64,000 nucleotides of DNA from Aromatoleum toluolicum (GTDB taxonomy: Bacteria; Pseudomonadota; Gammaproteobacteria; Burkholderiales; Rhodocyclaceae): assembly GCF_012911005.2 (NCBI RefSeq), contig NZ_WTVS01000020.1, positions 1 to 64,000 of the forward strand, given 5' to 3'. Below the pieces are notes generated by a model. The model was not told where the DNA came from and did not search any database. It was given only the letters and a program-made list of their open reading frames with translations. Below, one piece after another: positions 9,242-46,054 of the stretch; the first letter of the stretch is position 1, and every line of letters starts with the position of its first letter. The translations under genes and the position numbers were made by a program.

Positions 9242-9250
9242 CTCAGCTCG

Positions 9251-11266: not shown

Positions 11267-11413
11267 CAGGGAGCCTCCTTCGGTAGTCTCAAGCGGCGAG
11301 CCGTCGGTGCGGCGCGCATCCTTATCGGTCGGCCATACGGCACCGGCCGGCGAACTCCTCTGGGGCACCCGTTCAGGGCGATCGGCGCAGTCCTGCCGCC
11401 GTTTGTCTTTTTA

Positions 11414-11435
11414 TGTATACAGTATCCAGTGTATT
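11414..11435. promoter_or_regulatory. GntR-like operator upstream of the dehydrogenase/hydratase gene
   Basis: Contains TGTATACAGTATCC followed by GTGTAT. The first 14 bases are identical to those at 44613-44626, and the GTATACAGTA core is shared with the palindrome at 12585-12598 in front of gntR. It sits 148 bp upstream of the 11266 start codon. Confidence 0.6.
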
Positions 11436-11501
11436 CATGAAAAAAAGCAACCGCTTCCGGGGCCGCATGACACGGGGCCGTGACACGATCGACAGCTACT
11501 T

Positions 11502-12416: not shown

Positions 12417-12584
12417 GCGCGTCACCCGATTGATTGGATATCCATCATAGCCAAGCCGTCGCCGTGGCGGCAAACTGCTGCAACGGCTTCCAGCGTCGGC
12501 GGACTTCGATCGCCGGATCCGAGAATTCCCGGCGGAAGCTTATCCCCGTCCGATGACGCAAAGAACACTTTACACCCTAAAAAA

Positions 12585-12598
12585 TACTGTATACAGTA
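12585..12598. promoter_or_regulatory. Perfect GTATAC-centred palindrome upstream of gntR
   Basis: TACTGTATACAGTA is a perfect 14-bp palindrome 53 bp upstream of the gntR ATG. GntR/FadR-family factors typically bind GTATAC- or GTnnnAC-type palindromes, so this is a likely autoregulatory site. Confidence 0.7.
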
Positions 12599-12650
12599 CA
12601 CATTAACTCGAAAGCCGCTGCAAACAACGAACATCAAAGGCTCCAGAAAA

Positions 12651-13334
12651 ATGGTCTCCACGCTTCAGCCCGTCGAACGCCCCCTCGCTCTCGGAGAACG
12701 GGTCTATCACACCTTGCGCGATCACCTTCGAAGCGGTCAGATCGTCGCCGGCCAGCCGCTGCAGGAAGTCCAGCTCGCCGAAAAGCTCGGCGTCTCGCGC
12801 ACCCCCGTACGCGAAGCGCTGCGGCGCCTCGCAAGCGAAGGACTGCTCGTCTCCGACAACCGCAGCTTCGTCGTGCCGTCGCTGACGCTGCAGGACGTCA
12901 ACGACATCTACGAGATCCGCTTCCTCATCGAACCGGCCGCAATCCGCAGCATCGCACCACTGACGCGCTCGCCCGAGCTCCGCCGTGGCATCGAGGACGC
13001 GCTCGCGGCAATCGTACGCGCCCACAAGGCCGGGGACGCCGCAGCCTTCCGTGAAGCGACGATCTGCTTCCGTGCGGCATGGCTCGCCCTGGTGCCGAAT
13101 CCGCGGCTCGTGCGGATCGTCGAACAGTACGCCGACCACATGCAGCGCATCCGCACGCTGACGCTCGATGATCCCGAGATCCGCACGATCGTGCTGCGCG
13201 GCCTGAATCGCATCTCGTCCGCGCTGGCCGCCGGTGACGGCGACACTGCTGCCACGGCCATGCTCGAACATCTGGTCGAGGCGAAGCGGGCGTTCATCGC
13301 CGCCGTCGGCCTCAACGAAGACGGCCCGGCCTGA
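12651..13334 (+). CDS. GntR-family regulator (FCD/FadR subfamily)
   Basis: 227 residues. The N-terminal winged helix is typical (LREHLRSG-like start, then LAEKLGVSRTPVREALRRLA at about residues 40-60), followed by an all-helical FCD domain (YEIRFLIEPAAIRSIA). The ATG is preceded by a weak AAAGG. Divergent from the TetR gene and immediately upstream of the thiolase, so it may control the 13-29 kb block. The palindrome at 12585-12598 and relatives at 11414 and 44613 fit its expected site. Confidence 0.87.
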   Translation: MVSTLQPVERPLALGERVYHTLRDHLRSGQIVAGQPLQEVQLAEKLGVSRTPVREALRRLASEGLLVSDNRSFVVPSLTLQDVNDIYEIRFLIEPAAIRSIAPLTRSPELRRGIEDALAAIVRAHKAGDAAAFREATICFRAAWLALVPNPRLVRIVEQYADHMQRIRTLTLDDPEIRTIVLRGLNRISSALAAGDGDTAATAMLEHLVEAKRAFIAAVGLNEDGPA

Positions 13335-13389
13335 TCCTGCCAGCCGGCTGTTCGGGCGCTAACAGAAAAAATCCCGGAGACCGCAGACG

Positions 13390-14598
13390 ATGACCCGTTA
13401 CACCGCAGAAATCCCGTACGGTGCCTACTGGAGCACGCCGTTCGCGCGCTGGCAGGGCAGCTTCGCGTCGCTGCACAGCGTTCGCTTCGCCGCCCATGTG
13501 GCGAAGAACGAGCTTGCGAAACGGAACATCGACTCGCAGACGATCGACTACGGCGTCCTGGGATTCTCCGTGCCGCAGCAGCACGCGTTCTACGGCCTGC
13601 CCTGGCTCGCGGGACTGATCGGCGCGACCCGCGCGGGCGGGCCGACGATGATGCAGGCGTGCGCGACCGGCGTGCGCACGCTGCTCGCCGCGGCGCAGGA
13701 GATCGAGGCCGGTCTGTCAGAGGTGGCGCTCGTGGTGAACTGCGACCGCACGTCTAACGGCCCGCATCTCTACTACCCGAATCCGCGCGGCCCCGGCGGC
13801 ACCGGTTCGTCCGAGGACTGGGTGCTCGACAACTTCGGCTGCGACCCGCTCGGCGGCCACTCAATGGTGCAGACGGCGGAGAACGTCGCCGCGAGGCATG
13901 GCGTCGCGACCTCGCAGCAGCACGAACTCGTGCTGCGACGCGAGGCGCAATACGCCGACGCGCTGAAGGACGACTCCGCCTTCCTGCGCCGCTTCATGAC
14001 CCTGCCCTTTGACGTGCCGAGCGCCGATTTCCGCAAGATCGCGGGCACGCTCGACGGCGACGAGGGCGTGTCCCACTCGACGGCCGCCGGCCTCGCGAAG
14101 CTGAAGCCCGTCATGGAAGGTGGAACGGTCACCTTCGGCGGCCAGACGCATCCGGCGGACGGCAATGCGGCGATCGTCGTGACCACGCCCGAGCAGGCGA
14201 AAGCGCTGTCGAAGGATCCGGCGATCGCCGTGCGGCTTCGCGGCTTCGGCCTCGCCCGCACAGAGCTCGCGTACATGCCCGAGGCGATGATCCCCGCCGC
14301 GCGCCGTGCGCTCGGCCAGGCCGGACTCGACGTCGCCGACATGACGGCGATCAAGACCCATAACCCGTTCGCGGTCAACGACATCGTCTTTGCGCGCGAG
14401 ACCGGCGCGAAGCTCGATGCGATGAACAACTTCGGCTGCTCGCTCGTCTGGGGTCATCCGCAGGCACCCATGGGCACGCGCGCGATCATCGAATTGATCG
14501 AGGAACTCGCGCTGCGTGGGGGTGGCCTCGGCCTCTTCACCGGATGCGCCGCCGGCGACACGGCGATGGCGGTCGTCATCGAGGTCGGCGACCGGTAA
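13390..14598 (+). CDS. Thiolase-family acyl-CoA acetyltransferase
   Basis: 402 residues. The nucleophilic Cys is around residue 91 (MMQACATGVR), a His-bearing KTHNPFAVND loop is near 323, and the final FTGCAAGDTAM segment carries the second Cys. A NNFGCSLVWGHPQAPMGTR segment matches the thiolase NxxGG...GHP signature. The first gene after gntR. Together with the ligase and carboxylase downstream it fits cleavage of a beta-ketoacyl-CoA with release of acetyl-CoA. Exact chain length is unknown; an SCP2/BbsB-type thiolase acting on a substituted substrate is possible. Confidence 0.87.
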   Translation: MTRYTAEIPYGAYWSTPFARWQGSFASLHSVRFAAHVAKNELAKRNIDSQTIDYGVLGFSVPQQHAFYGLPWLAGLIGATRAGGPTMMQACATGVRTLLAAAQEIEAGLSEVALVVNCDRTSNGPHLYYPNPRGPGGTGSSEDWVLDNFGCDPLGGHSMVQTAENVAARHGVATSQQHELVLRREAQYADALKDDSAFLRRFMTLPFDVPSADFRKIAGTLDGDEGVSHSTAAGLAKLKPVMEGGTVTFGGQTHPADGNAAIVVTTPEQAKALSKDPAIAVRLRGFGLARTELAYMPEAMIPAARRALGQAGLDVADMTAIKTHNPFAVNDIVFARETGAKLDAMNNFGCSLVWGHPQAPMGTRAIIELIEELALRGGGLGLFTGCAAGDTAMAVVIEVGDR

Positions 14599-14640: not shown

Positions 14641-14785
14641 CACGGCAGGAAAGGATCACCGCCTCCCCGCCAAAGGGAGACACGAGAGGCGCAAAAGCGC
14701 CCGGATGCAGCATCCCCAACCGGATTCAAACGAGTCAGAAGAGGCGCGCAAAGCGTCCGTGACCGAACCTGGAGGAGGAATGGGG

Positions 14786-16318
14786 ATGGACTTGTCCGAA
14801 TGGATCGTCCGTCAGGCCGGGCTCGCGCCCGACAGGACGGCGATCCGCTTTCCGGAGCGCGACCTGACGTACGCGGCGTTCGCCGCCGAGATCGATCGGC
14901 TCGCGTCGGCGCTCCGCGTGTCGGGCGTGGAGCGCGGCGACTGCGTCGCGTTTCTCGCCTACAACCGTCCGGAAACGCTCGCGACGCTGTTCGCCTGCGC
15001 TCGGCTGGGCGCGCTCTTCATGCCACTGAACTGGCGCCTCGCGGGCCCCGAGCACCGGCAATTGCTCGCCGACTGTCCGCCGAAGGTGCTGCTCGTGGAA
15101 CCGCGCTTCGTCGGGCAGATCGACGCCTTCCGGGAAGAGCTCGATGGGATGACGCTCGTTGCGTTCGCCACCCCGCCGCAGGGCTGGATCGCCTTCGACG
15201 AGCTGATGGAGCGCGGCGGCGAGCCCGTGGCGCATGACCCGCGCGTCGGCCCCGACACGCCCTTGTTGATCTGTTACACGTCCGGTACCACCGGCAAGGC
15301 GAAAGGCGCGCTCCTGACCCAGGACGCGCTTGCGTGGAACGCCGCGAACAGCGCCGATCTGCACGGGCTCACGAGTGACGACCGGGTGCTGACGACGCTT
15401 CCGCTGTTCCACGTCGGCGGGCTCAACAACCAGACCACCCCCGCCCTGTCGCGCGGCGCCACCGTCGTCCTGCATCCGCGATTCGACGTCGATGAGACCT
15501 TCGACGCGCTCGAGGCGGAGCGCATCACGCTGACCGTCCTCGTGCCGGCGCAGATCGAGGCGATGGTGGCACATCCCCGCTGGCCGACCGCGGATCTCTC
15601 GCGCCTACGGATGATCACGACCGGCTCGACGGTGGTGCCCGACCGGCTCTTCCGCACAGTGCACGAACGCGGCATTCCCCTCGTGCAGATCTACGGCTCG
15701 ACCGAAACCAGCCCGATCGCGGCCTATGTGAAGGCTGCGGACGCGTACGCGCACGCGGGTTCGGCCGGACGTCCGGCGCGCCACTGCAGCGTTCGCGTTT
15801 CGGGCGAAGGCGGCGCGGACGCGAAGACGGGCGTCAGCGGCGAGATCCTCGTGCGCGGGCCGAACGTGATGGCGGGCTACTGGAACAACGCGCAGGCGAC
15901 CTCCGAGGCGCTGCGTGACGGCTGGTTCCACACCGGCGACATGGGCCATTTCGATGCCGACGGCTGGCTGTGGGTCGACGGCCGCAAGAAGGAAATGATC
16001 ATTTCGGGCGGCGAGAACATCTATCCAGCCGAGATCGAGAACCTCCTCATGGAGTCGCCCGACATCGCCGAAGTCGCCGTGGTCGGGCGCCCGGACGAGC
16101 GTTGGGGCGAATGCGTCGTGGCGGTCATCGTCACGCACGAAGGCTCGACCCTCGATGCCGGCGGCGTGCTCGGGCTCCTCGACGGCCGCATCGCCCGCTA
16201 CAAGTTGCCCAAGGAAGTGTTGTTCATCGACGAACTCCCGCGCACCGCGCTGGGCAAGGTCCGCAAGGACGAAGTGCGGCGTCTGGTCGCACGCAAAACG
16301 TTCATGGAGCACATCTGA
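14786..16318 (+). CDS. AMP-forming acyl-CoA synthetase
   Basis: 510-residue ANL-superfamily ligase. It has P-loop ICYTSGTTGKAKGA, motif YGSTETSP, WFHTGDMGHFDADGWLWVDG, the KEMIISGGENIYPAEIE hinge and the C-terminal catalytic Lys in ALGKVRKDE. I start at the second ATG (14786) because GGAGGAGG lies seven bases before it; the ATG two codons earlier is too close. The stop overlaps the next start (TGATG). It would activate a free carboxylate, plausibly the beta-keto acid formed by the carboxylase encoded next. Confidence 0.9.
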   Translation: MDLSEWIVRQAGLAPDRTAIRFPERDLTYAAFAAEIDRLASALRVSGVERGDCVAFLAYNRPETLATLFACARLGALFMPLNWRLAGPEHRQLLADCPPKVLLVEPRFVGQIDAFREELDGMTLVAFATPPQGWIAFDELMERGGEPVAHDPRVGPDTPLLICYTSGTTGKAKGALLTQDALAWNAANSADLHGLTSDDRVLTTLPLFHVGGLNNQTTPALSRGATVVLHPRFDVDETFDALEAERITLTVLVPAQIEAMVAHPRWPTADLSRLRMITTGSTVVPDRLFRTVHERGIPLVQIYGSTETSPIAAYVKAADAYAHAGSAGRPARHCSVRVSGEGGADAKTGVSGEILVRGPNVMAGYWNNAQATSEALRDGWFHTGDMGHFDADGWLWVDGRKKEMIISGGENIYPAEIENLLMESPDIAEVAVVGRPDERWGECVVAVIVTHEGSTLDAGGVLGLLDGRIARYKLPKEVLFIDELPRTALGKVRKDEVRRLVARKTFMEHI

Positions 16319-18444
16319 TGACTTTGAAAATCGGAATCGACGTCGGCGGCACCTTCACCGATTTCGTCGTTACCCGCGACGGTGCCGAACCGGCCATCTT
16401 CAAGACCTTGTCGACGCCGTCCGACCCCTCGATCGCGGTCGTCAACGGGCTTGCCGAGATCGCCGCGAGCATGCATCCGCCGATGACGCTCGAAGCGTTC
16501 GCGCCGACGATAGCCACGATCGTGCACGGCACGACGGTGACGACCAACGCAACCCTGACGGGCAGCGGCGCGAAGAGCGGCCTGCTGACGACGGAAGGGG
16601 TGCGCGACGCGCTGGAGATGCGCCGCGGCGTGCGCGAGGAGCAATACAACAACCGCTACACCAACGTGAAGCCGCTGGTGCCGCGCTACCTGCGGGCGGG
16701 CATCCCCGGGCGGGTCGACCGTGACGGCAACGAGGCGGCGGCGCTCGACCTCGACGCGGTGCGAAGCGCGATCGAACTCTTCCGCGCCGAAGGCGTGCAG
16801 GCGGTGTCGATCTGCTTCCTGAACTCGTTCGCCAACCCCGCACACGAGCAGGCCGCGGCCGACATGGTGCGCCGCGAGCTGCCCGGCGCCTACCTGTCGG
16901 TATCGACGGATCTCTTGCCGTCGATCCGCTTCTACGAGCGCGTCAGCACGACGGCGCTGAACTCCTACGTCGGTCCGAAGCTGAACCATTACCTGGACCA
17001 GCTCGTCGGCCGCCTGAAAGGCATCGGCTTCGACGGGCTGCTCTTGATCATGCAGTCGAACGGCGGCGTGATCTCGCCGCAGCTCGCGCGCGAAAAGGCG
17101 GCGCTGACGCTGCTGTCGGGCCCTGCGGGCGGCCCGGGCGCGGGCCTGCACTACGTGCGCGTGCATGGCCAGAACAAATGCATCATCACCGACATGGGCG
17201 GTACGAGCTTCGAGGCCTCCGTCGCCGTCGATGCGCCGATGATCAAGAACGACGGCGAGATCGCGCGCCACAAGATCGCGCTGCCGATGCTCGACATCCA
17301 CACCATCGGAGCCGGCGGTGGCTCGATCGGCTGGCTCGACGAAGGCGGCCTGCTGCGCATGGGCCCGGCGAGCGCCGGCGCGGACCCCGGCCCCGCCTGC
17401 TACGGCAAGGGCGGCCGGCTGCCGGCGACGACCGATGCCAACGTCGTGCTCGGCTACCTCGACCCGGAGTTCTTCGCCGGCGGCAAGATGAAGCTCGACG
17501 TCGAGGCCGCGCGCGCGACAATCTTCGAGCACATCGCGAAGCCGATGGGGCTTTCGATCGAGGACGCCGCGGCCGGCATGTACCGCGTCGCGTGCAACAA
17601 CATGGCGCAGGGCGTGCGCGAGGTGACGATCAAGCGCGGCTTCGATCCGCGCGAGTTCCCCTTCATCCCCGCGGGCGGCGCCGGCCCGATCCATTCGTGC
17701 CTGATCTGCGAGGAGCTCGAGATCCCGCTGCAGGTCGTGCCGCGCGAATCCTCGGTGCTGTGCGCGTTCGGCATGCTGATGAGCGAGCTCAAGCACGATT
17801 TCGTGCGCACTTTCGTGTCGCGGCTCGACGCGGCCGACTGGACGAAGCTCGAGGGCATCATCACCGCGATGGCCACCGACGGTGCCCGTCAGCTCGACGA
17901 GGAGCGCATCCCCGAGGGACGCCGCCGTTTCGACGTCAAGCTCGACTGCCGCTACGTGAAGCAGTACCACGAGGTCTCCTTCGTCGTGCCGCAGGCCCTG
18001 ATCGCCGCCGGCGACGCGCAGGGCATCGCACGCGACTTCCATGCCGAGCACAACCGCCTGTACGGCTACTCGCTGGAAGCGGAGAACACGCCGGTCGAGA
18101 TCATCAACGTGCGCGTGCAGGCGATCGGCGTCACCGACAAGCCGGTCGCGCGCCACGAGTCCTGGGCGGGCGAGGATGCGGCGCACGCGCTCAAGGGCCG
18201 GCGCGCCGTGTATATCCCCGAGACGCGGAAATTCCGCGAAGTGCCGGTCTTTGACGGCCACCGCATGCGACACGGCAACCGCATAGAGGGGCCGGCGATG
18301 ATCGAGCAGGAGACGACGGCGATCTTCGTGTCGGCGTCCTTCGACTGCGTCGTCGATGCGCTCGGCTCGTTCGCGCTGTACCAGAAAGGCCGCGCCGACC
18401 TCGTGGCGTCGTGCATCAAGGACATGAAGGAGGCGCTGGTATGA
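16318..18444 (+). CDS. Hydantoinase/acetone carboxylase-type subunit A (ATPase subunit)
   Basis: 708 residues of the HyuA/ApcA/AcxA superfamily. The N-terminal ATPase-like fold starts IGIDVGGTFTDFVVT, then HGTTVTTNATL, an internal LLSGPAGGPGAG segment and DMGGTSFEASV. Members either ATP-dependently carboxylate ketones (acetone, acetophenone) or open lactam/hydantoin rings. Coupled to the ligase upstream (TGATG) and to subunit B downstream (ATGA). Presence of thiolase and ligase in the same block favours the ketone carboxylase reading; a lactamase role is the alternative. Confidence 0.88.
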   Translation: MTLKIGIDVGGTFTDFVVTRDGAEPAIFKTLSTPSDPSIAVVNGLAEIAASMHPPMTLEAFAPTIATIVHGTTVTTNATLTGSGAKSGLLTTEGVRDALEMRRGVREEQYNNRYTNVKPLVPRYLRAGIPGRVDRDGNEAAALDLDAVRSAIELFRAEGVQAVSICFLNSFANPAHEQAAADMVRRELPGAYLSVSTDLLPSIRFYERVSTTALNSYVGPKLNHYLDQLVGRLKGIGFDGLLLIMQSNGGVISPQLAREKAALTLLSGPAGGPGAGLHYVRVHGQNKCIITDMGGTSFEASVAVDAPMIKNDGEIARHKIALPMLDIHTIGAGGGSIGWLDEGGLLRMGPASAGADPGPACYGKGGRLPATTDANVVLGYLDPEFFAGGKMKLDVEAARATIFEHIAKPMGLSIEDAAAGMYRVACNNMAQGVREVTIKRGFDPREFPFIPAGGAGPIHSCLICEELEIPLQVVPRESSVLCAFGMLMSELKHDFVRTFVSRLDAADWTKLEGIITAMATDGARQLDEERIPEGRRRFDVKLDCRYVKQYHEVSFVVPQALIAAGDAQGIARDFHAEHNRLYGYSLEAENTPVEIINVRVQAIGVTDKPVARHESWAGEDAAHALKGRRAVYIPETRKFREVPVFDGHRMRHGNRIEGPAMIEQETTAIFVSASFDCVVDALGSFALYQKGRADLVASCIKDMKEALV

Positions 18445-20138
18445 GCAACGCGAAAATCGATCCCATCCTGCTGTCCGTGTACGCCCGGACCTTCCGCTCG
18501 ATCACCGACGAGATGAGCATCTCGATGGAGCAGACGACCCGTTCGCCGATCCTGTGCGAGGCCAAGGACTACGTGACGGGCCTCTACGACGGCGACGGCA
18601 ACATGCTCGAGCAGACCGAGAACCTGCCGATCCTCGCGTTCTCGCTGGCGCCGGTGTGCAAGTACATCAAGGACTACTTCGGCGACGATCTCCATCCCGG
18701 CGACGTGATCTTCCACAACGACGTGTTCAGCTTGGGCAACCAGAACAACGACGTCGCGGTGTTCAAGCCGGTGTTCTTCGAAGGCAAGCTCGTCGCCTGG
18801 ACCGCGGTCAAGGGCCATCAGGCCGACATCGGCGGCAACGTCGCCGGCGGCTACAACCCGAACGCGGTCGAGGTGTGGCAGGAGGCGCTGCGCATCCCGC
18901 CGGTGAAGGTCGTCGAGAAAGGAAAGCTGCGCAAGGACGTGTGGAACCTGATCTTCGCCAACGTGCGCCTCGACATCGTGCAGCACGACATGAAGGCCGA
19001 GATGGGGGCCTGCACCGTCGGCGAGCGGCGCTTCCTCGAGCTGATCTCGAAGTATGGCGTGGCGAGCTACGACGCGCACAAGCAGGCGCTCTTCGACGCA
19101 ACCCGCCGGATGATGGAAGCCGAGATCGCGAAGATCCCGAACGGCCGCTACTCGGGTGAAGGCAAGGTGTTCTACGACGGGCGCCACGTCGGTTCGCAAT
19201 TCACGATCCGCGTCGACATCGAGGTGCAGGACAAGTCCATCCGCTTCGACTACTCGCGCACCGATCCGCAGACCAACGGCTTCGTGAACGGCACCTTCAC
19301 GTCGAGCGCGTCGGCGACGATCCTGACCCTGCTGCAGATGGTGAACCCCGACATCCCGCACAACGAGGGCATGGTGCAACCGATCGAGATCGTGATCCCG
19401 GAGGGCACGATCCTCAACGCGGCCTACCCGAAGGCGACGACCTTCGGCAACCACCTGTGTCCGCCCAATGCCGACGCCATCCAGCGCGCGCTCGCGCCCG
19501 TGATGCCCGAGCGCGTTACGGCAGGCTGGAACAACCTGCTCGCGAGCCTCACCACCGGCATCGATCCGAAGACCAATGAGAAATACGTCGACATCGGCTT
19601 CATGGGCCTGAAGGGCGGCTCGGGCGCGATGCTGGGCACCGACGGCTACGACCACATCGGCATGATCGACGCTTCCGGCGGCGTGCTCGACCAGGACTAC
19701 GAGATGTTCGAGCAGCAGACGCCGCATCGGCTGATCCGTCACGAGTTGCTCGCCGACTCGGCCGGCGCCGGCGAATGGCGCGGCGGGCTCGGCGTCGAGA
19801 CGATCTTCGAGATCGGCTCGGACGACACGCAGCTCGTGACTTTCGGCGACGGCGACTTCGAGCCGGCGTTCGGACTCTTCGGCGGCGGTGACGGCGGCCT
19901 GAACTTCATCCGCTTGCACTATCCGGACGGGCAGACGGTCGTGCCGAAGAACAAGGACCTGATCACCGGCGTGCCGAAGGGCACGATCTACCACCAGGTC
20001 GCCAGCGGCGGCGGCGGCTATGGCGATCCGAAGCGGCGCGACCGCAAGCTCCTCGCCGAGGAGATCCGCAACGGCGTGATCACCGAGCAGGCGGCGCGCG
20101 AGCTGTACGGGTTCGAGCCCGGGCAGGTGACCGGATGA
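18441..20138 (+). CDS. Hydantoinase/acetone carboxylase-type subunit B
   Basis: 565 residues of the HyuB superfamily, partner of the preceding subunit. Visible family features are the N-terminal EEMSISMEQTTRSPI-like segment, the metal-site region GDVIFHNDVF with KGHQADIGG, and the C-terminal VASGGGGYGDPKRRD. I start at MSNAKID, whose ATG overlaps the subunit A stop. No small third subunit or extra Apc-type subunits are nearby, unlike acetone carboxylase (AcxABC) or acetophenone carboxylase (five subunits). Confidence 0.88.
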   Translation: MSNAKIDPILLSVYARTFRSITDEMSISMEQTTRSPILCEAKDYVTGLYDGDGNMLEQTENLPILAFSLAPVCKYIKDYFGDDLHPGDVIFHNDVFSLGNQNNDVAVFKPVFFEGKLVAWTAVKGHQADIGGNVAGGYNPNAVEVWQEALRIPPVKVVEKGKLRKDVWNLIFANVRLDIVQHDMKAEMGACTVGERRFLELISKYGVASYDAHKQALFDATRRMMEAEIAKIPNGRYSGEGKVFYDGRHVGSQFTIRVDIEVQDKSIRFDYSRTDPQTNGFVNGTFTSSASATILTLLQMVNPDIPHNEGMVQPIEIVIPEGTILNAAYPKATTFGNHLCPPNADAIQRALAPVMPERVTAGWNNLLASLTTGIDPKTNEKYVDIGFMGLKGGSGAMLGTDGYDHIGMIDASGGVLDQDYEMFEQQTPHRLIRHELLADSAGAGEWRGGLGVETIFEIGSDDTQLVTFGDGDFEPAFGLFGGGDGGLNFIRLHYPDGQTVVPKNKDLITGVPKGTIYHQVASGGGGYGDPKRRDRKLLAEEIRNGVITEQAARELYGFEPGQVTG

Positions 20139-21268
20139 ACTTCGATCTCACCGACGAACAACGCGCGATCCGGGACACGTTCGCGCGCTTCTGCGACGAG
20201 CGCATCGCGCCGCAAGCGGCTGCGCTCGACGAGGCACGCGCGTTCCCGCGGGCGCTGTTCCGCGAGCTCGCCGAGCTCGGCTTCTTCGGCATGCGCTATC
20301 CCGAATCGGTCGGCGGCACCGGGCTCGCGCTCACCGAGTTCTGTCTCGCGCTGACCGAGGTCGCGCGCGGCTCGATGTCGCTCGCCGGCGCGGTCGCGAT
20401 GCAGTCGCTGATGGGCACCAAGTTCCTGCAGCTCCTCGGCAACGCCGACATCGTCGAGCGCCTCTTCAAGCCGGCGCTCTGCGGCGACAGGATCGGCGCG
20501 ATCTGCATGACCGAGCCCAATGCGGGCTCCGACCTCGAATCGATCGCGACCACCGCGACCAGGGTCGACGGCGGCTACGTCCTCAACGGCCAGAAGACCT
20601 GGATCACGTCCGCCCCGGTCGCGGACTTCTTCACGGTCTTTGCGCGCGCGGGTGAAGAAAAGAAGCTGACGATCTTCCTCGTCGAGAAGGAGTTCAAGGG
20701 CCTCGTCGTCGGGCGCGAGATCCACAAGATGGGCGTGTGGGCGCTGCCGACCTCCGAAGTCGCGTTCAACGACTGCTTCGTGCCGGACAGCCACCGCCTG
20801 TCGAAGGAGGAAGGCGACGGCGAGGGGCACCTGAGGAAGACGCTCGCCGAGATCCGCATCATCACCGGCGCGATGGCGCTCGGCGTCGCGCGCGCGGCGC
20901 TCGACGAGGCAGTGCGCTACGCCGGCGAGCGCCAGCAGTTCGGCAAACCGATCAACCGCTTCCAGGCGATCCAGCTGAAGCTCGCCGAGATGGCGACCGG
21001 GCTGGAGGCCGCCACCGCCCTCGTCCACCGTGCCGCGTGGCTGTGCGACGCCAAGCGTCCGCACCACAAGGAAGCCGCGATGGCGAAGCTCTTCGCGACC
21101 GAAACCGCCGCATCGATCTGCGACCAGGCCGCGCGCGTGCTCGCGTCCTACGGCTACGCGATGGAGTACCCGGTGCAGCGGTATCTCCGTGACGTGCGCT
21201 TCACGCTGATCGGCGGCGGCACCAGCGAAATCCTCAAACTCGTCATTGCGAAGGAGGTGAGCGCATGA
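20135..21268 (+). CDS. Acyl-CoA dehydrogenase, non-canonical at the catalytic Glu position
   Basis: 377-residue flavoprotein of the acyl-CoA dehydrogenase family. It has MTEPNAGSDLESI, the TWITSAP FAD-binding segment, RQQFGKPINRFQ and a C-terminal RDVRFTLIGGGTSEI. In short- and medium-chain enzymes the last motif is usually YEGT with the catalytic Glu; here that residue is Gly. The base may be supplied elsewhere, as in isovaleryl-CoA dehydrogenase. ATGA overlaps at both ends bind it to the carboxylase and the mutase, so it probably oxidises an intermediate between them. An ETF partner is not in the window. Confidence 0.87.
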   Translation: MNFDLTDEQRAIRDTFARFCDERIAPQAAALDEARAFPRALFRELAELGFFGMRYPESVGGTGLALTEFCLALTEVARGSMSLAGAVAMQSLMGTKFLQLLGNADIVERLFKPALCGDRIGAICMTEPNAGSDLESIATTATRVDGGYVLNGQKTWITSAPVADFFTVFARAGEEKKLTIFLVEKEFKGLVVGREIHKMGVWALPTSEVAFNDCFVPDSHRLSKEEGDGEGHLRKTLAEIRIITGAMALGVARAALDEAVRYAGERQQFGKPINRFQAIQLKLAEMATGLEAATALVHRAAWLCDAKRPHHKEAAMAKLFATETAASICDQAARVLASYGYAMEYPVQRYLRDVRFTLIGGGTSEILKLVIAKEVSA

Positions 21269-21681
21269 ACGACACCGCACAACGCCGCATCCGCGTGCTG
21301 CTCGCGAAGCCCGGCCTCGACGGCCACGACCAGGGCGCGAAAGTCGTCGCGCGCGCGATGATGGACGCGGGCTTCGAGGTCATCTACACCGGCCTGCGGC
21401 AGACACCCGAACAGGTGAGCCGCATCGCCCTCGACGAGGACGTCGACGTCATCGCGCTCTCGTCGATGGCGGGCTCGCACCTGCCCTTCTGCCGCAAGTT
21501 GAAGCCGCTGCTCGAAGCGAACGGCCTCGGCGACAAGCTGTGGATGATCGGCGGCAACCTGCCGGCGCAGGACCACGACGCGCTGCGCAGCCTCGGCTTC
21601 ACGGGGATCTTCCCGACCGGTTCGAAGTTCGACGCGATCGTCGCTTACATCCGTGAGAATGTCCGGGAGAACGTCGCATGA
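21265..21681 (+). CDS. B12-binding small subunit of an acyl-CoA mutase
   Basis: 138 residues forming a stand-alone cobalamin domain. It has the base-off motif GLDGHDQG with the cobalt-ligating His, the SSMAGSH loop and GGNLPAQD. The family usually has GHDRG and a PGT loop; here these are GHDQG and TGS. Separate small subunits are found in isobutyryl-, 2-hydroxyisobutyryl- and some archaeal methylmalonyl-CoA mutases. Overlaps the acyl-CoA dehydrogenase and large-subunit genes by ATGA, so the two mutase chains are likely made together. Confidence 0.9.
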   Translation: MNDTAQRRIRVLLAKPGLDGHDQGAKVVARAMMDAGFEVIYTGLRQTPEQVSRIALDEDVDVIALSSMAGSHLPFCRKLKPLLEANGLGDKLWMIGGNLPAQDHDALRSLGFTGIFPTGSKFDAIVAYIRENVRENVA

Positions 21682-23291
21682 ACGACCGCGCCCAACCGAC
21701 GCTGAAGCGCGTCACGAACGAATCCGGCCTCGAAGTCCAGCCGCTCTACACCGCCGCCGACGTCGCGGCGAGCAGCGGCGACGCGATGATCGGCCTGCCC
21801 GGCGAATATCCCTTCACGCGCGGCATCCACCGCGAGATGTACCGCAAGCAGCCGTGGACGATGCGCCAGTACGCGGGCTTCGGCAATCCGGCCGACACCA
21901 ACCAGCGCTTCAAGTATCTGATCGCGAACGGACAGACGGGGCTCAATGTCGCCTTCGACCTGCCGACGCAGATCGGCCTCGACTCGGACGACCCGCTCGC
22001 CCAGGGCGAAATCGGCCGCGTGGGCATGTCGGTCGACACCCTGCGCGATTTCGAGGTGGCGTTCGACGGCATTGATCTCGACAAGATCACCGTGTCGATG
22101 ACGATCAACGGTGCCGCGGCGATCGCGATCGCGATGTATCTCGCGATGGCCGAGAAGCGCGGCTACGACGTGAAGCAGCTGCGCGGCACCGCGCAGAACG
22201 ACATCCTGAAGGAGTTCATCGGTCGCGGCACCTGGATCTTCCCGGTCGAGCCCTCGATCAAGCTCGTCGGCGACACGATCGAGTACTGCGCAGAGCACGC
22301 GCCCAAGTACAGCCCGGTTTCGGTGTGCGGCTACCACATCCGCGAATCGGGCGCGACGCCGGCGGAGGAAATGGCCTACGCCTTCTGCATCGCCCGCGCC
22401 TATGCCGATGAGGTCATCGCGCGCGGTCTCCACGTCGACGAGTTCGCCGGGCGGCTGTCGTACAACTTCAACATCTTCGGCAACCTCTTCGAGCAGGTGT
22501 GCAAGTTCCGCGCGGGGCGCAGCCTGTGGGCCAAGATCATGAAGGAGGAGTACAAGGCCGAAAAACCGGGCTCGATGTGGCTGCGCATGATCGCGGCGGG
22601 CGGCGGTGGCGGGCTCACCTTCGAGCAGCCCGAGCTCAACATCGTGCGCGGCGCCTACTACGCGCTGATCAGCGCGCTCTCGGGCACGCAGACGATGGCG
22701 CTGTGCTCGTACGACGAGGCCTACACCATCCCGACCGAGTATTCTGCGCGCATCTCGCTGCGCACCATGCAGATCCTCATCGCGGAAATGGGCCTCACCG
22801 AGACGGTCGATCCGCTCGGCGGTTCGTACTACGTCGAGACGATGACGAACCAGATGCGCGAGAAGATGGAAGAGATCATCGCCGAGACCGACGCGCAGGG
22901 CGGCATCGTCAAACTCGTGTCCGAAGGCGCGATCCAGGCGAAGGTGTCGGCGCAGGCGTACAAGATGCAGCGCGACATCGAGAGCGGCGCGTTCCCCAAG
23001 GTCGGCGTCAATTGCTACCGCAACGACCAGGAGGACGAGCACAAGGTCGATTTCCACCCCTACGACGAGGACGACGCGCGCGTGCAGATCGAGTCGCTGA
23101 ATCGCGTGCGCGCCGAGCGCGACGCCGACCGCGTCGCCCGCACGCTCGCGGGCGTCGGCGAGGCCGCGCGCGCGGGCGCCAACGTCATGCCGGCAATCGT
23201 CGAGGCGGTGAAGGCCTACGCGAGCATCGGCGAGATCACGCAGGAACTGGTGAAAGTGTTCGGACGGTACCAGGAACCGATCCGCTTTTAG
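21678..23291 (+). CDS. Acyl-CoA mutase large subunit with divergent substrate loops
   Basis: 537-residue TIM-barrel subunit of a B12 acyl-CoA mutase. By comparison with methylmalonyl-CoA mutase, Tyr65 (RQYAG), Thr171/Gln173 (GTAQND), Arg183 (GRGT) and His220 (GYH) match substrate-binding residues Tyr89, Thr195/Gln197, Arg207 and His244. Retained Tyr and Arg imply a CoA ester with a free carboxylate, and argue against 2-hydroxyisobutyryl- or isobutyryl-CoA mutase. Two normally invariant loops differ: HSQTSGW is here IAAGGGGG (305-312), and QSLHTNSxDEA is QTMALCSYDEA. The loop change suggests a bulkier or differently shaped substrate, such as a substituted malonyl/succinyl-CoA. Confidence 0.88.
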   Translation: MNDRAQPTLKRVTNESGLEVQPLYTAADVAASSGDAMIGLPGEYPFTRGIHREMYRKQPWTMRQYAGFGNPADTNQRFKYLIANGQTGLNVAFDLPTQIGLDSDDPLAQGEIGRVGMSVDTLRDFEVAFDGIDLDKITVSMTINGAAAIAIAMYLAMAEKRGYDVKQLRGTAQNDILKEFIGRGTWIFPVEPSIKLVGDTIEYCAEHAPKYSPVSVCGYHIRESGATPAEEMAYAFCIARAYADEVIARGLHVDEFAGRLSYNFNIFGNLFEQVCKFRAGRSLWAKIMKEEYKAEKPGSMWLRMIAAGGGGGLTFEQPELNIVRGAYYALISALSGTQTMALCSYDEAYTIPTEYSARISLRTMQILIAEMGLTETVDPLGGSYYVETMTNQMREKMEEIIAETDAQGGIVKLVSEGAIQAKVSAQAYKMQRDIESGAFPKVGVNCYRNDQEDEHKVDFHPYDEDDARVQIESLNRVRAERDADRVARTLAGVGEAARAGANVMPAIVEAVKAYASIGEITQELVKVFGRYQEPIRF

Positions 23292-23430: not shown

Positions 23431-23480
23431 CATACGTGCCCGACTGCACCACGAATTGCGTCAATGAGGACATACTAACG

Positions 23481-24344
23481 ATGACCATCGAAAGATATGC
23501 CGCGCCGCAGAGCCTCGACGAGGCGCTCGGCATCCTGCAGCAGGGCGAGGTGACCATCCTCGCAGGCGGCACCGACCTGATGCCGCAGACGAAAGCCGGC
23601 CGCATCGCGTTCAAGCCGACGCTGATGAACATCGGCCGCGTCGCGGGACTGAAAGGGGTCAGCCTCGACGGCGCGTACCTGCGCATCGGGGCGCTCACCA
23701 CGATCAGCGAGCTCCTCCGCGATCCGCTCGTCGTGCAGCACGCGCCGGTACTGGCCGAGGCCTGCGATCAGTTCGCGAGCGACCAGATCCGCAACGCGGG
23801 CACGCTCGGGGGCAACATCAACAACGCCTCGCCCGCGGGCGACACCCTGGTGCCGCTGATCGTGCTCGACGCCGAGGTCGAGCTCGCGTCGAAGCCCAAT
23901 GGCAGCGTCACCACGCGGCGCCTGCCGCTCGCCGAGTTCTTCACCGGCCCCGGCAGGACCAAGCGCGCCGCGAACGAGCTGCTCACCGCGGTGCGCGTCC
24001 CGCTACCGCAACCGGGCCACGTCGCGCGCTTCTACAAGTTCGGCACGCGCCCCGCGCTCGACATCTCGACGATCTCGATCGGCATCGCCGGCATCAAGCG
24101 CGACGGTGCGCTCACCGACATCCGCGTCGCCTTCGGCGCAGTCGCCCCGACGCCGGTGCGCGCGCCGCGCACCGAAGCCGCGCTCGAAGGCCGTCCCCTC
24201 GATGCCGAGGCCATCGCCGCCGCCGCAGACACCGCGCGCGACGAGGTCAGCCCGATCGACGACGTCCGTGCCACCGCGTGGTACCGCAAGGAACTCATCC
24301 ACAACATGACCAGAAGGATGCTCGATCATGTCGCTAAAGCATGA
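23481..24344 (+). CDS. Molybdenum hydroxylase FAD subunit
   Basis: 287-residue medium subunit of the xanthine dehydrogenase/CO dehydrogenase family. The FAD-binding loop is ILAGGTDLMPQ, and the second FAD segment IRNAGTLGGNINNASPAGD is well conserved. It lacks the about 40-residue insertion with an extra 4Fe-4S cluster that marks 4-hydroxybenzoyl-CoA reductase. I start at MTIERYA after GAGGACAT. Overlaps the Fe-S subunit gene by 17 bases. Passes electrons from the 2Fe-2S subunit to its acceptor. Confidence 0.9.
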   Translation: MTIERYAAPQSLDEALGILQQGEVTILAGGTDLMPQTKAGRIAFKPTLMNIGRVAGLKGVSLDGAYLRIGALTTISELLRDPLVVQHAPVLAEACDQFASDQIRNAGTLGGNINNASPAGDTLVPLIVLDAEVELASKPNGSVTTRRLPLAEFFTGPGRTKRAANELLTAVRVPLPQPGHVARFYKFGTRPALDISTISIGIAGIKRDGALTDIRVAFGAVAPTPVRAPRTEAALEGRPLDAEAIAAAADTARDEVSPIDDVRATAWYRKELIHNMTRRMLDHVAKA

Positions 24345-24801
24345 CATCGAATTCACGCTGAATGGCGTCGGGAAGCGCGTCACCGTCGACGTCGCGATGA
24401 CCGCGCTCGACATGCTGCGCGACGTCGTCGGCCTCACCGGCACGAAGTACGGCTGCGGCGAAGGCGAGTGCGGCGCGTGCACGATCCGCGTCGACGGCGA
24501 GACGCGCAATTCCTGCCTGATGTTCGCCGTCGATTTCGACGGCCGCGACATCGTGACGATTGAGGGCCTCGCCGCCGACCCGAAGGCGGACGCGCTGCGC
24601 GAAGCCTTCGTCGAGCACGGCGCGGTGCAGTGCGGCTTCTGCACGCCGGGGATGGTGATGCAGGCATCGCACATTCTCGACACGAACCCGAACGCCGACG
24701 CGGAGACGATCAAGCGCGGTATCGAAGGGAATCTCTGCCGTTGCACCGGCTACAAGAAGATCGTCGACGCGGTCGAGTCCGCGTGCTGCGGCGGTCGCTG
24801 A
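24328..24801 (+). CDS. Molybdenum hydroxylase 2Fe-2S subunit
   Basis: 157-residue small subunit. The plant-type ferredoxin cluster is YGCGEGECGACTI plus a later Cys in NSC; the second cluster is CGFCTPGM and CRCTGY. Both are complete, as in quinoline, CO and xanthine dehydrogenases. Starts inside the FAD gene and ends eleven bases before the molybdenum subunit gene. Confidence 0.92.
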   Translation: MSLKHDIEFTLNGVGKRVTVDVAMTALDMLRDVVGLTGTKYGCGEGECGACTIRVDGETRNSCLMFAVDFDGRDIVTIEGLAADPKADALREAFVEHGAVQCGFCTPGMVMQASHILDTNPNADAETIKRGIEGNLCRCTGYKKIVDAVESACCGGR

Positions 24802-24811
24802 GGAGGACAGG

Positions 24812-27220
24812 ATGAACGTTGCTGAAAAACCCGTCATCGCCGCCGCCTCGCTGATCGGTCAGCGCATCCAGAAGAAGGACGCGCCCGAAAAGGCCGCCGG
24901 CAAGACGCGCTACATCCAGGACATGGTCGTTCCCGGCATGCTGCACGCAAAGATCCTGCGTTCGAGCCGCGTGCACGCGAAGATCAAGAGCATCGACACC
25001 TCGGCCGCAAAGGCGCTGCCCGGCGTTCATGTCGTCCTCACAGCGGCGGACGTGCCCGACCAGCAGCCGATCGGCGTCGCGCGCGACCACCTGCCGCTGA
25101 AGGGCGAACGCGTGCGCAGCCTGCGCGACGAGATCGCTGCGGTGGCCGCCGACAGCGACGAGATCGCCGAAGCCGCGCTGAAACTGATCCGCGTCGAATA
25201 CGAGGACCTGCCGGTCATCGCCACGCCCGAGGACGCGATCAAGCCGGGCGCGCCGCTGATCCACCCCGCCCCGCTCGACGCCCACGGCCGCCCGCAGTCG
25301 CTGCCGCCGAAAACGCCGATCGCGTTCGCCGGCAAGGCGGACAACATCGCGATGCGCTTCGACTACACGCACGGCGACATCGCCCAGGCCGAAGCCGAAT
25401 CCGACGTCGTCGTCGAGGACAGCTTCCAGCTGCACTACGTGACGCACTGCTGCATGGGCGTGTCGGGCGTCATCGCCGAGTTCGACGCCTCCGGCAACCT
25501 GCTGATGTACTCGAACACGCAGGTGCCCTTCCTGCACAAGCGCGAGTTCGCCGAATACCTCAACATCGATCCGAGCCGCGTGCGCATCATCCAGCCGCCC
25601 ATCGGCGGCGGATTCGGATCGAAGCTCGACATCTACCCGTTCGAAGTCATCTGCATCTTCCTCGCGCGCGCCGCAAAGCGCCCGGTCAAGATGGTCTTTA
25701 CACGCGAAGAAGAGTTTCTGGCCTCGCCGACGCGGCAGCCGGTGCTGCTGACGCTGCGCTCGGGCTGCAGGAAGGACGGCACGCTGACCTTCCGCCAGGT
25801 GCATACGCTGCACGACAACGGCGCCTACACGTCGTGGGGCGCGACGACGCCCTTCGTGATGATGCAGACCTTCTCGTCGCTGTACCGCGTGCCGGCGTGC
25901 GACTATCACACGACCGTGGTCTACACGAACAACCCCTATGCCGGCTCGTTCCGCGGCTACGGCAACCTGCAGGCGACCTTCGCCATCGAGCAGCACATGG
26001 ACATGCTGGCCGAGAAGATCGGCATGGACCCGCTCGACTTCCGCATGAAGAATGCGCAGGACGTCGGCGAAGTCACCGGCCAGGGCATGGAGTTCAAGAG
26101 CTGCGGCTTCAAGGAATGCCTGACGACTGCGGCCGAGCGCAGCGACTACCGGAAGAAGCACGCCGACAACATCGCGAACCGCAACGCGCGCGGGCCGGTG
26201 AAGCGCGGCATCGGCATCGCGTCGATGCTGCACGTCGGCGGCGGCGCGAAGATCTATCCGTCGGACGGCTGCGGCACGATCCTGAAGCTCGACGATTTTG
26301 CGAACGTCACGCTCATCACCGGCGCGTCCGAGATTGGCCAGGGCTCGGAAACGGTCCTGTCGCAGCTGGTCTGCGAGGAGCTGGGGCTGCCGATCTCGGC
26401 GGTCACCGTGGTCAATAACGACACCGCGATCACGCCGTGGGACGTCGGTGTGCATGCGAGCCGCACGACATTCATCGCCGGCAACTCGGCGATCGGCGCG
26501 GCGCGCAAGGCGAAGGCGAAGATCCTCGCGGCGGCGGCGAAGAAGCACGGCTGCGGCGAGGCGGCGCTCGACCTGCGCGGCGGCTTCGTCGTCGTCGCCG
26601 AGACGGGTGAGCCCGTGGTCGAACTGGCGCGCCTGATGCGGAACCTGCACTTCTCCGACAAGGCCGAGCTCGTCATGACGACCTTCTACTACGAGCCGCC
26701 GAGCGTCCATCAGGACAAGGCCTTCAAGGGCGACGTGTCAGCCGCCTACGCGTGGGCCGCGCAGGTCGTCGAGGTCGAGGTCGATACCGAGACCGGCATC
26801 GTGAAGATGACGAAGGTCACCGGCACGCACGACGTCGGCCGCGTGCTCAACCGCCTCGGCCTCGAAGGCCAGATCGAAGGCGGCGTCGTCATGGGCCAAG
26901 GCTACGCGCTGACCGAGAACCTGATCGTCGAGAACGGCGTCACGCGCAACCCGAACTTCCGCGACTACAAGCTGGTGACGGCGCCGGAGATCCCCGAGAT
27001 GGACATCACCTTCGTCGAGTCGATGGACGGAGAAGGTCCGCAGGGCGCCAAGGGCGTTGGCGAGGCGCCGGCGATCTGCATCGCCGCGGCCGCCGCGAAC
27101 GCGATCCACAACGCGACGGGGGTGCGCATCTTCGGCCTGCCCTTCACCCCGGAAGCGGTGTACCGGGCCCTCCGCGGCAAGTCCGACAAGCCTCACTGGC
27201 CCGCGTGGAAACCGGAATGA
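24812..27220 (+). CDS. Molybdenum hydroxylase catalytic (molybdopterin) subunit
   Basis: 802-residue large subunit of the xanthine oxidase family. It shows the N-terminal a/b hammerhead ([20 protein letters not shown]), GGGFGSK, the FRGYG segment, IGQGSETV, and the C-terminal catalytic glutamate in GAKGVGEAP. Such enzymes hydroxylate with water at activated carbons or dehydroxylate phenols. The stop overlaps the CoA-transferase start by four bases. Its XdhC-type sulfuration factor is probably the MeaB-XdhC fusion at 38.0-39.8 kb. The substrate cannot be read from sequence. Confidence 0.9.
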
Positions 27221-28413
27221 AGCCGCGCACCGTACTCTCCATGGAGCAGGCGCTGTCGATGCCCTACGCGACGCTGCGCTTCGCGCAGCTCGGCTGGCGC
27301 GTGATCCGCCTCGAATCGACGCCATCGGGCGATGGCCTGCCCGGCGATCCCAACCGCTACATCGGCGGCAAGGTCGCCGACGACGACCGGCGCACCTACT
27401 TCATCGCACCCAACGTCGGCAAGGAGGCGATCGCGCTCAACCTCAAGGAGCCCGACGGCCAGGCGTTGCTCAGGCGTCTGCTGGTCGAGCTCGACGTCGA
27501 CGTGTTCTGCTGCAACACGGTGCCGCGTCGCTACAAACAGCTCGGCATCGACTACAGCACGCTCGCCGCGGCGAAGCCGGATCTGATCTGGGCGGGGATT
27601 TCGGCGATGGGACCGGACTACCCGGATGCGCCCGGCTACGATCCGGTGATCCAGGCGATGGCCGGCTACATGGAACTCACCGGTGCGGCCGACGGGCCGC
27701 CGACGCTCGCCGGCGTGCCGATCATCGACCTCAAGGCGGGAGACGAGGTCTATGCGAATGTAATGATGGCGCTGATCGAACGCGCCGAGAGCGGCAAGGG
27801 CACGCGCATCGACGTCTCCATGCTGCAGGCCGCCGCGTCGTGGCTCATCACGACGCTGCCGCTGCTCGACTTCGACTGCCAGCCGTCCGAGATCACGCGC
27901 TGCGGCAACGAACACCGCAAGTTCATCCCGACGAACGTCTATCCGACGGCCGACGGATTCATCTACATGGCGATCGGCAGCGACGTGCAGTGGAAGCGCC
28001 TGTGCGAGATCCCGAAGTTTGCGTCGATCGGTAACTCCGCGCGCGCGACGAACGAAGGGCGCCATCGCGAGCGCGAGGCGATCCACCGCGACGTCTCCGC
28101 CGTCACCAGCCGCTATCCGACCGGCGAGATCGCCGCGGATTTCCGCGACGGCACGATCCCGCACGCACCGATCCACGACATCCCGGCAGTGCGCGAGATG
28201 GACGCCATCCGCCAGCGGCTGACGACCACGCGCATGCCTGGCGGCAAACTCGTGCATATGCAGCCGATGGCGGTCGACGTTGCCGGTGCCGATGGCGGAG
28301 AGCTGGCGTTCGCGCCGCGCTACGGCCAGCACACGGATGCCGTCCTGCGCGAGGCCGGATGCAGCGACGACGAGATCGCGCTGCTGCACGCGCGAGGGAT
28401 CGTCGCCAGCTGA
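27217..28413 (+). CDS. Family III CoA-transferase (CaiB/BaiF)
   Basis: 398 residues of the formyl-CoA transferase family, which move CoA between carboxylic acids through an aspartyl-CoA anhydride. The candidate catalytic Asp is in [12 protein letters not shown], about residue 170; [13 protein letters not shown] is also characteristic. Begins inside the molybdenum subunit stop (ATGA). It offers a second way, besides the AMP-forming ligase, to activate a pathway acid, perhaps the hydroxylated product. Confidence 0.88.
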
Positions 28414-28570: not shown

Positions 28571-29719
28571 ATGAAGATGCTTGGCATTCGATTGGCGCTG
28601 TCCGGACTCGTTCTGGCGGCGTCGTTGTCGGCGCACGCCCAGGTTAAGATCGGCGTCGTGTCCTCGGCGACCGGGCCGACCGCGCTGGTCGGCATTCCGC
28701 AGAAGAACACGGTGGCGCTGCTGCCGGCGAAGATCGGCGATCTCAACGTCGAGTACATCGCGCTCGACGACGCAAGCGATCCCACCGCGTCGGTCACCGC
28801 CGTGAAGAAACTGATCTCGGAGCAGAACGTCGACGCGATCATCGGGCCTTCCGGCTCGCCCAACGCGATGGGGGTGATCCAGTTCGTCGCCGACGCGGGC
28901 GTGCCGCTGCTCGCGCCGGTGGGCACGGCGGCCGTCGTGACCCCGATGGACGACAAGAAGAAGTGGGTGTTCAAGACCACCCAGAACGACGACATCATCG
29001 CCACGGCGCTCGTCGAGCACATGGTGAGGAAGGGCGTGAAGACGGTCGGCTTCATCGGCGTCGGCGACCCCTATGGCGAGAACTGGTACAAGGTGTTCTC
29101 GGCGCTCGCGGACAAGAACGGCATGAAGATCGTCGCCAACGAGCGCTTCCAGCGCCAGGATGCGTCGGTCACCGGCCAGAGCCTCAAGATCCTCGGCGCC
29201 GCGCCGGACGCGGTGCTCGTCGCCGCCGCCGGCGGGCCGGCGGTGCTCCCGCATACCACGCTCGTCGAGCAGGGCTACAAGGGGCAGATCTACCAGACGC
29301 ACGGCGCGGCGCTGCCCGATTTCCTCAAGCTCGGCGGCAAGAAGGTCGAGGGCACGGTCCTCGCCGCAAGCCTGATGCTGGTGCTGCCCGAGATCGCCGA
29401 CAACCACCCGTCGAAGAAGATCGCCGCCGACTACATCGCCGCCTACGAGAAGGCGCACGGCACGAAACCGGCGACCTTCGGCGCGAACGTCTTCGATGCC
29501 GGCCTGCTGCTGCAGCAGGCGATCCCGGCGGCGGCGAAGGTGGCCAAACCCGGCACGAAGGAGTTCCGCGCCGCGCTGCGCGACAGCCTCGAGCAGACCC
29601 GCGAGCTCGTCGGCACCCAGGGCATCTACAACATGAGCGCCACCGACCACAGCGGCTTCGACGAGCGCGGCCGCGTCCTCATCGCCGTCAGGGACGGCGG
29701 CTGGACGCTCGCGAAGTAA
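28571..29719 (+). CDS. Periplasmic substrate-binding protein, branched-chain amino acid (LivJ) type
   Basis: 382 residues with a signal peptide ending SAHA and a Peripla_BP_6 fold (VKIGVVSSATGPTALVGIPQKN, IIGPSGSPNAMG). In aromatic degraders this class binds aromatic or other carboxylic acids for ABC uptake. No permease or ATPase genes are adjacent, so it either borrows a transporter or serves as a sensor. Last gene of the plus-strand catabolic block. Confidence 0.88.
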   Translation: MKMLGIRLALSGLVLAASLSAHAQVKIGVVSSATGPTALVGIPQKNTVALLPAKIGDLNVEYIALDDASDPTASVTAVKKLISEQNVDAIIGPSGSPNAMGVIQFVADAGVPLLAPVGTAAVVTPMDDKKKWVFKTTQNDDIIATALVEHMVRKGVKTVGFIGVGDPYGENWYKVFSALADKNGMKIVANERFQRQDASVTGQSLKILGAAPDAVLVAAAGGPAVLPHTTLVEQGYKGQIYQTHGAALPDFLKLGGKKVEGTVLAASLMLVLPEIADNHPSKKIAADYIAAYEKAHGTKPATFGANVFDAGLLLQQAIPAAAKVAKPGTKEFRAALRDSLEQTRELVGTQGIYNMSATDHSGFDERGRVLIAVRDGGWTLAK

Positions 29720-32673: not shown

Positions 32674-32725
32674 GGTCTCGTCTCCTGTTCAGTCATGCGT
32701 TGCAAGCCTGAAGATTACCACGATA

Positions 32726-32793: not shown

Positions 32794-32872
32794 ATTTTTA
32801 GGCCTCCAAGAACGACGATCACGGGGGACCTGATCGCGCAGCCCCCGTCAACGACCCAAGGAGCATGTCCGC

Positions 32873-46050: not shown

Positions 46051-46054
46051 CGAC

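Follow-up and report, generated by a model that had tools for sequence, protein, structure and literature searches.

The B12-dependent acyl-CoA mutase gene pair on an Aromatoleum toluolicum contig very probably encodes IaaGH of anaerobic indoleacetate degradation

The first 64,000 nucleotides of contig NZ_WTVS01000020.1 of Aromatoleum toluolicum, the whole stretch analysed and in the following called the window, contain two overlapping genes for a coenzyme B12-dependent acyl-CoA mutase. With a probability of about 0.94, as judged from sequence comparisons, this gene pair encodes IaaGH, the adenosylcobalamin (AdoCbl)-dependent mutase of the operon for anaerobic degradation of indoleacetate (auxin). 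The mutase is an already known, ordinary IaaGH orthologue. An earlier note on this DNA had proposed a new subfamily with unprecedented substrate loops; its description of the proteins was borne out, but the novelty was not. The two genes are:

21265-21681, plus strand: mutase small subunit, B12-binding, 138 amino acids; TIGR00640 with an E-value of 2.6e-41; DxHxxG motif (DGHDQG) from residue 19; putatively IaaG according to the gene order.
21678-23291, plus strand: mutase large subunit, catalytic, 537 amino acids; TIGR00641 with an E-value of 7.3e-182, supported by the tree and the loop counts; putatively IaaH according to the gene order.

The genes iaaABCDEFGHIJKLMPQR were described for Aromatoleum evansii KB740 and A. 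aromaticum EbN1 (excerpt of PMC9613470). In the excerpts of PMC8360864, IaaB is given as a CoA ligase, IaaL as phenylsuccinyl-CoA transferase, IaaM as a binding protein, IaaGH as benzylmalonyl-CoA (phenylsuccinyl-CoA) mutase and IaaF as benzylmalonyl-CoA dehydrogenase. IaaF was assayed on benzylmalonyl-CoA, and IaaF proteins possess a GGG motif at the site of the YEG found in most other acyl-CoA dehydrogenases; iaa operons of archaea and of sulfate reducers are also named there. IaaCE is hydantoinase-like according to the excerpt of PMC8453981. The part of PMC4207700 that was available concerns the production of indoleacetate, and the mutase is not mentioned in PMC3653055.

For comparison, a mutase with at least 65% identity was collected from 106 loci. 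In 13 of these genes were cut, and merging of 17 duplicate loci left 89 distinct genes, 76 of which were long enough for counts per alignment column. The dehydrogenase gene of the window (20135-21268) lies directly before the mutase and shows the IaaF-type GGG (IGGGTSEI). A GGG dehydrogenase precedes the mutase in 70 of the 71 distinct loci (of the 89 genes) whose upstream flank measures 1.7 kb or more; L095 is the remaining one, and its dehydrogenase is present with an unreadable motif. The gene parts of both cloning primers for iaaF of strain EbN1 match locus L111 exactly, at the two ends of gene 10325-11455, and directly behind it lie the mutase subunits (11455-11871, 11871-13481), each with 91% identity to its counterpart in the window. 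L111 is likely EbN1, which is not proven because the two primers fit A. buckelii as well (L038/L114, with a 92% identical mutase). A. evansii KB740 possesses two copies (L041, L043), whose large subunits are 97% and 94% identical to that of the window and carry the same loops. The KB740 copies and L111 fall into the same clade as the window mutase; genus, operon and loops are shared, and no difference of substance was seen between the IaaGH of EbN1 or KB740 and that of the window.

That the window mutase forms a truly new subfamily for an unidentified substrate, for which loops unlike those of methylmalonyl-CoA mutase (MCM), 2-hydroxyisobutyryl-CoA mutase (HCM) and IcmF would speak, is therefore very improbable, because the same protein belongs to the published iaa operon of Aromatoleum and because the primer match and the KB740 copies contradict it. 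The loops are not unprecedented either, as they recur in KB740 and in the loci matching the EbN1 primers, and the clade proposed as new is that of the IaaGH already named in the excerpts of PMC8360864.

Beside the mutase, the following genes of the operon and its surroundings were assigned in the window:

12651-13334, plus strand: GntR/FCD regulator upstream of the operon (PF00392, PF07729; predicted start).
13390-14598, plus strand: thiolase at the position of iaaA (PF00108/PF02803).
14780-16318, plus strand: AMP-forming CoA ligase, IaaB, indoleacetate-CoA ligase type (PF00501, PF13193; predicted start).
16318-18444, plus strand: hydantoinase/oxoprolinase A subunit of the IaaC/E type, ATP-dependent lactam opening (PF01968/PF05378; predicted start).
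18441-20138, plus strand: hydantoinase B subunit of the IaaC/E type (PF02538; predicted start).
20135-21268, plus strand: acyl-CoA dehydrogenase IaaF (benzylmalonyl-CoA dehydrogenase); IGGGTSEI replaces the YEG motif; 93% identical to the primer-matched gene of L111.
23436-24344, plus strand: FAD subunit of xanthine dehydrogenase type (PF00941/PF03450).
24328-24801, plus strand: 2Fe-2S subunit of xanthine dehydrogenase type (PF01799/PF00111).
24812-27220, plus strand: molybdopterin subunit of xanthine dehydrogenase type, type A of two versions (PF02738/PF20256/PF01315).
27217-28413, plus strand: class III CoA-transferase at the position of IaaL, phenylsuccinyl-CoA transferase (PF02515; predicted start).
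28571-29719, plus strand: periplasmic substrate-binding protein at the position of IaaM (PF13458; predicted start).
9251-11368, minus strand: 3-hydroxyacyl-CoA dehydrogenase/enoyl-CoA hydratase fusion (PF02737/PF00378), a candidate for β-oxidation of 2-aminocinnamoyl-CoA.

The mutase thus stands together with a CoA ligase, a hydantoinase-type lactamase, a molybdenum hydroxylase and a class III CoA-transferase. The letters of the thiolase (iaaA) and of the hydroxylase genes are those we presume to be in use. All eleven enzyme genes were present in each of the nine loci whose flanks reach 9.3 kb or more upstream and 6.5 kb or more downstream, and the binding protein in seven of them. As content and order of the genes fit the published iaa genes, so far as these are described in the excerpts of PMC8360864, PMC9613470 and PMC8453981, the cluster is identified as the iaa operon.

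Two observations weigh against this assignment. No purification or assay of IaaGH was found in the literature searched, so that its reaction rests on the logic of the pathway. Furthermore, none of the operon neighbours reaches any NCBIfam cut-off listed for them: the closest models are caprolactamase alpha for the hydantoinase A subunit, caprolactamase beta for the B subunit, and succinate-glutarate CoA-transferase for the class III CoA-transferase, each below its cut-off.

The two open reading frames (ORFs) of the mutase overlap by four bases, and both are free of internal stops. Both subunits are intact, as the earlier note had stated, and exceed the cut-offs of their NCBIfam models (TIGR00641 and TIGR00640). 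With the TIGR00641 large domain and a B12 domain possessing DxHxxG, the protein belongs to the superfamily of AdoCbl-dependent acyl-CoA mutases, and with the NCBIfam equivalog models for MCM and IcmF it scores under their cut-offs. The best solved structure by sequence was HCM (4r3u, E-value 1e-149), followed by human MCM. Tyr65, Arg183 and His220 of the large subunit align with active-site columns of MCM which, in the P. shermanii enzyme, we take to be Tyr89, Arg207 and His244; an offset of 24 at all three positions agrees with this numbering, and the reported retention of these three residues is thus correct. Tyr65, Gln173, Arg183, His220 and Glu347 are invariant in all 76 near-full-length genes, the window included. 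The replacement of the arginine that marks 2-hydroxyisobutyryl- and isobutyryl-CoA mutases was accordingly absent, as Arg183 is kept throughout (76/76).

The substrate loops were found where they had been reported, loop 1 (IAAGGGGG) at residues 305-312 and loop 2 (QTMALCSYDEA) at 338-348; loops of the MCM kinds (HSQTSGW, LHTNS) are absent from the window mutase. In the 76 genes, residues 305, 306, 308-310 and 312 of loop 1 are invariant, position 307 is Ala (54) or Gly (22), and position 311 is Gly (75) or Ser (1). In loop 2, Q338, T339, A341, L342 and C343 are invariant and M340 is kept in 75 of 76. These counts have to be read with the sampling in mind: 80 contig loci, the best 80 of 157 confirmed candidates, were picked for a match to P[GRS]SMWLRM or GGGLTFEQ, and since this selection touches loop 1, its conservation in these loci is partly circular. 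The fair set consists of 18 orthologues from a search with the whole protein, in which no loop pattern was used. Loop 1 is kept in all 18 (17 matched by regular expression, the 18th, L140, read directly), and loop 2 reads QTMALC in 17 and QTTALC in one. The near-invariance of loop 1 in 76 genes shows that it is no sequencing slip, and the loops are a fixed signature of the iaa mutase among the Proteobacteria sampled. Altered loops as such are not unique, because rewritten loops also occur in other mutases without assigned function (L021, L023 and L143). The statement that known mutases keep QT(S/A/G)G and LHTN held for the three classes compared, i.e. the MCM, HCM and IcmF sequences; the earlier note had extended it to further classes.

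The phylogenetic check suggested in that note was carried out with a tree of 49 rows, whose reference classes were MCM (from the same genome, human and others), HCM (4r3u and a plasmid of Xanthobacter) and IcmF, but not the ethylmalonyl-, pivalyl- or alkylsuccinyl-CoA mutases; all trees came from a fast procedure that gives no bootstrap values. All 20 IaaH rows fall together (SH-aLRT, an approximate likelihood-ratio support, of 100) apart from the MCM, HCM and IcmF rows, and the window mutase lies outside the MCM clade. For these three classes, the nesting within a known clade that would have spoken against the note's proposal was not observed. Nearest to IaaH, though weakly supported (88, with a long-branch warning), is L021, a tentative sister. 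The L021 cluster (5173-9521) has a mutase with the loops ATAGDQTEL and QSVILAAYDEA, behind which MeaB and a class III CoA-transferase are encoded. Outside the order to which A. toluolicum belongs, IaaH was rarely encountered: among 398 genomes across the phylum it occurred, beside the window's own genome, in only one (G229, 73%).

Both MCM (2xij, 1req) and HcmAB (4r3u) resemble the window mutase in part. MCM shares the Tyr, Arg and His active-site columns and TIGR00641, but has other loops and belongs to a separate clade, and the B12 domain of the window mutase resides on its own chain. HcmAB likewise lacks a B12 domain on its catalytic chain, whereas it possesses Ile for Tyr65, Gln for Arg183 and the loops CQTAA and LHTNG, and forms a separate clade. 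The retained dicarboxylate-binding Arg and the equivalents of Tyr89 and His244 would also be compatible with a methylmalonyl- or ethylmalonyl-CoA mutase whose loops have drifted. We regard this as highly unlikely, because the protein groups in a separate clade, apart from MCM (in a tree without ethylmalonyl-CoA mutase), because the loops are fixed across the orthologues instead of drifting, and because the same genome has a separate MCM-type gene elsewhere. An IcmF-type gene is also present in this genome.

The molybdenum hydroxylase of the operon (23436-27220) occurs in two types with about 55% identity, and of 64 distinct loci (L016-L118, L140) 44 carry type A and the other 20 type B. In the tree of the hydroxylase itself the two types form one clade each, but on the IaaH tree (60 rows) the type label requires 10 changes, at least four of them forced by well-supported branches; shuffling of the label gave a mean of 15 changes, so that the types are nevertheless less scattered than in random arrangements. 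A. buckelii (type B) and A. anaerobium (type A) have near-identical mutases. The distribution of the types looks like repeated module exchange. Two such deeply separated hydroxylases in otherwise similar operons, and the two operon copies of A. evansii, leave room for copies that handle other substrates. The operon of the window might accordingly serve a different N-heteroaromatic or aryl-acetic acid, with the mutase acting on another substituted succinyl-CoA. This is improbable, as the window copy shares hydroxylase type and gene order with the primer-matched L111, although we give it somewhat more weight than the other two alternatives.

For IaaGH, the bulky dicarboxylic CoA ester suggested in the earlier note is supported as a likely substrate by the equivalent of Arg207 in all 76 genes and by the operon context; most likely it is a bulky aryl-succinyl- or aryl-malonyl-CoA. 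In the proposed pathway, indoleacetate would be converted to its CoA ester by the ligase. The ester would then be hydroxylated by the molybdenum hydroxylase, a step which we presume to belong to the pathway, and the ring would be opened by the ATP-dependent lactamase, yielding (2-aminophenyl)succinyl-CoA. IaaL would move CoA to the other carboxyl group, probably the one next to the aryl-bearing carbon. In the mutase reaction, the 5'-deoxyadenosyl radical would abstract a hydrogen atom, putatively from the CH2 group adjacent to the free carboxylate; the thioester group, C(O)SCoA, would migrate to that carbon and leave a benzylic product radical, which would regain hydrogen to give (2-aminobenzyl)malonyl-CoA, the putative product of IaaGH with this substrate. 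IaaF would finally oxidise and decarboxylate (2-aminobenzyl)malonyl-CoA to 2-aminocinnamoyl-CoA. The steps of CoA ligase, IaaL, IaaGH and IaaF follow the excerpts of PMC8360864.

Arg183 would hold the free carboxylate, and the glycine-rich loop 1, with fewer side chains, would make room for the aryl ring. Loop 1 presumably replaces the MCM stretch with His328 and Gln330. Tentatively, and at slightly less than even odds, the iaa island may be a purpose-built radical mutase system, in which His328, Gln330 and Asn366 of MCM (in the numbering we assume) are replaced by Ile, Ala/Gly and Cys in IaaGH for a stabilised benzylic product radical, and in which cobalamin is loaded by a dedicated MeaB domain, covalently fused to XdhC as the maturation factor of the operon's molybdenum hydroxylase, so that two unrelated metalloenzymes of the pathway would share a single chaperone.

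This fusion protein is encoded about 15 kb from the mutase:

38046-39845, minus strand: MeaB-XdhC fusion, single ORF, 599 amino acids; PF03308 at residues 19-250, PF02625 at 276-343 and PF13478 at 452-592; TIGR00750 over cut-off.

MeaB proteins assist B12 mutases and XdhC proteins assist enzymes of xanthine dehydrogenase type, and this operon encodes both kinds of metalloenzyme. The GTPase P-loop of the MeaB part is GAPGVGKS at residue 54, and both XdhC domains are joined to MeaB. Among 17 genomes of the genus, MeaB-XdhC is present in all 12 with IaaH and in none of the five without; in the latter, only separate relatives with at most 50% identity occurred among the matches listed. A. evansii possesses two IaaH and two MeaB-XdhC. 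Seven genomes have the fusion as one ORF (eight copies, 88-100% identical), and five have MeaB-XdhC(N) and XdhC(C) with an ATGA overlap. A TGA within relatives of the fusion had been considered as a selenocysteine codon or a frameshifting site, which was rejected, as the six junctions read are ATGA of two overlapping genes. The MeaB half is closer to MeaB beside HCM-type mutases (e.g. 54-56% in G320, G177 and G212) than to MeaB near the genome's own MCM (44%).

Outside the genus the association is looser. Of the four such genomes with IaaH among the 41, only G020 has the split form, and G017, G022 and G034 gave no match spanning both MeaB and XdhC domains; the nearest MeaB of G034 (64%) adjoins a different mutase (L026). 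These cases argue against an exclusive tie of the fusion to IaaH, and part of the co-occurrence might reflect linkage within a single island. In the 398 genomes across the phylum, no other match spanned both parts cleanly among the matches listed, the one in G405 covering residues 11-456 with 39% and three stops. We predict that the B12 mutase and the molybdenum hydroxylase share MeaB-XdhC as their chaperone; a paper on MeaB, XdhC and their fusion together was not found in the literature searched. Conserved beside the fusion gene is a gene (36761-37843, minus strand) for a 360-amino-acid protein weakly similar to a molybdopterin biosynthesis protein and without a Pfam match.

Further observations concern the surroundings of the operon. 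Of the 55 distinct loci whose upstream flank reaches 9 kb or more, 47 have a relative of the GntR/FCD regulator. In the same 55 loci, a relative of the fusion protein at 9251-11368, which may supply β-oxidation steps, occurred 15 times, 14 times behind the operon and once (L111) in front of it as in the window. An NnrS gene follows the gene of the periplasmic binding protein in plus-strand order. In the region 9000-36500 no Rfam model matched at the gathering threshold, hence no cobalamin riboswitch was found there. The seven matches to the benzoyl-CoA reductase/BadF family in the genome are a weak indication in favour of this pathway, since this family also matches in 10 of 14 control genomes. 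A second cluster was seen in A. toluclasticum (L028, 307-10419), with hydantoinase A/B, a mutase large subunit without the Arg207 equivalent, a B12 subunit, a CoA ligase and an acyl-CoA dehydrogenase; this combination of lactamase and mutase possibly serves another pathway. Another genome of the genus (L027) has a mutase similar to that of L028, together with hydantoinase B. Elsewhere in the window, PADLOC models identified a defence cluster of the cyclic-oligonucleotide-based antiphage signalling type (CBASS) at 31484-36032 (CapP, CapH, cyclase, HORMA, TRIP13 and the NucC nuclease). Subunits of a 2-oxoacid:ferredoxin oxidoreductase with an FAD/NAD reductase are encoded at 44668-49481 (minus strand), and a molybdopterin oxidoreductase set at 50291-55416.

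The mutase of the window is a described enzyme and should not count as a new mutase subfamily. Its loop signature marks IaaGH among genes which family models call only methylmalonyl-CoA mutase domains, and the MeaB-XdhC fusion predicts that a B12 enzyme and a molybdenum enzyme mature together. IaaGH is also a target for structural studies on the way in which an AdoCbl-dependent mutase copes with an aryl substituent and with a benzylic radical.

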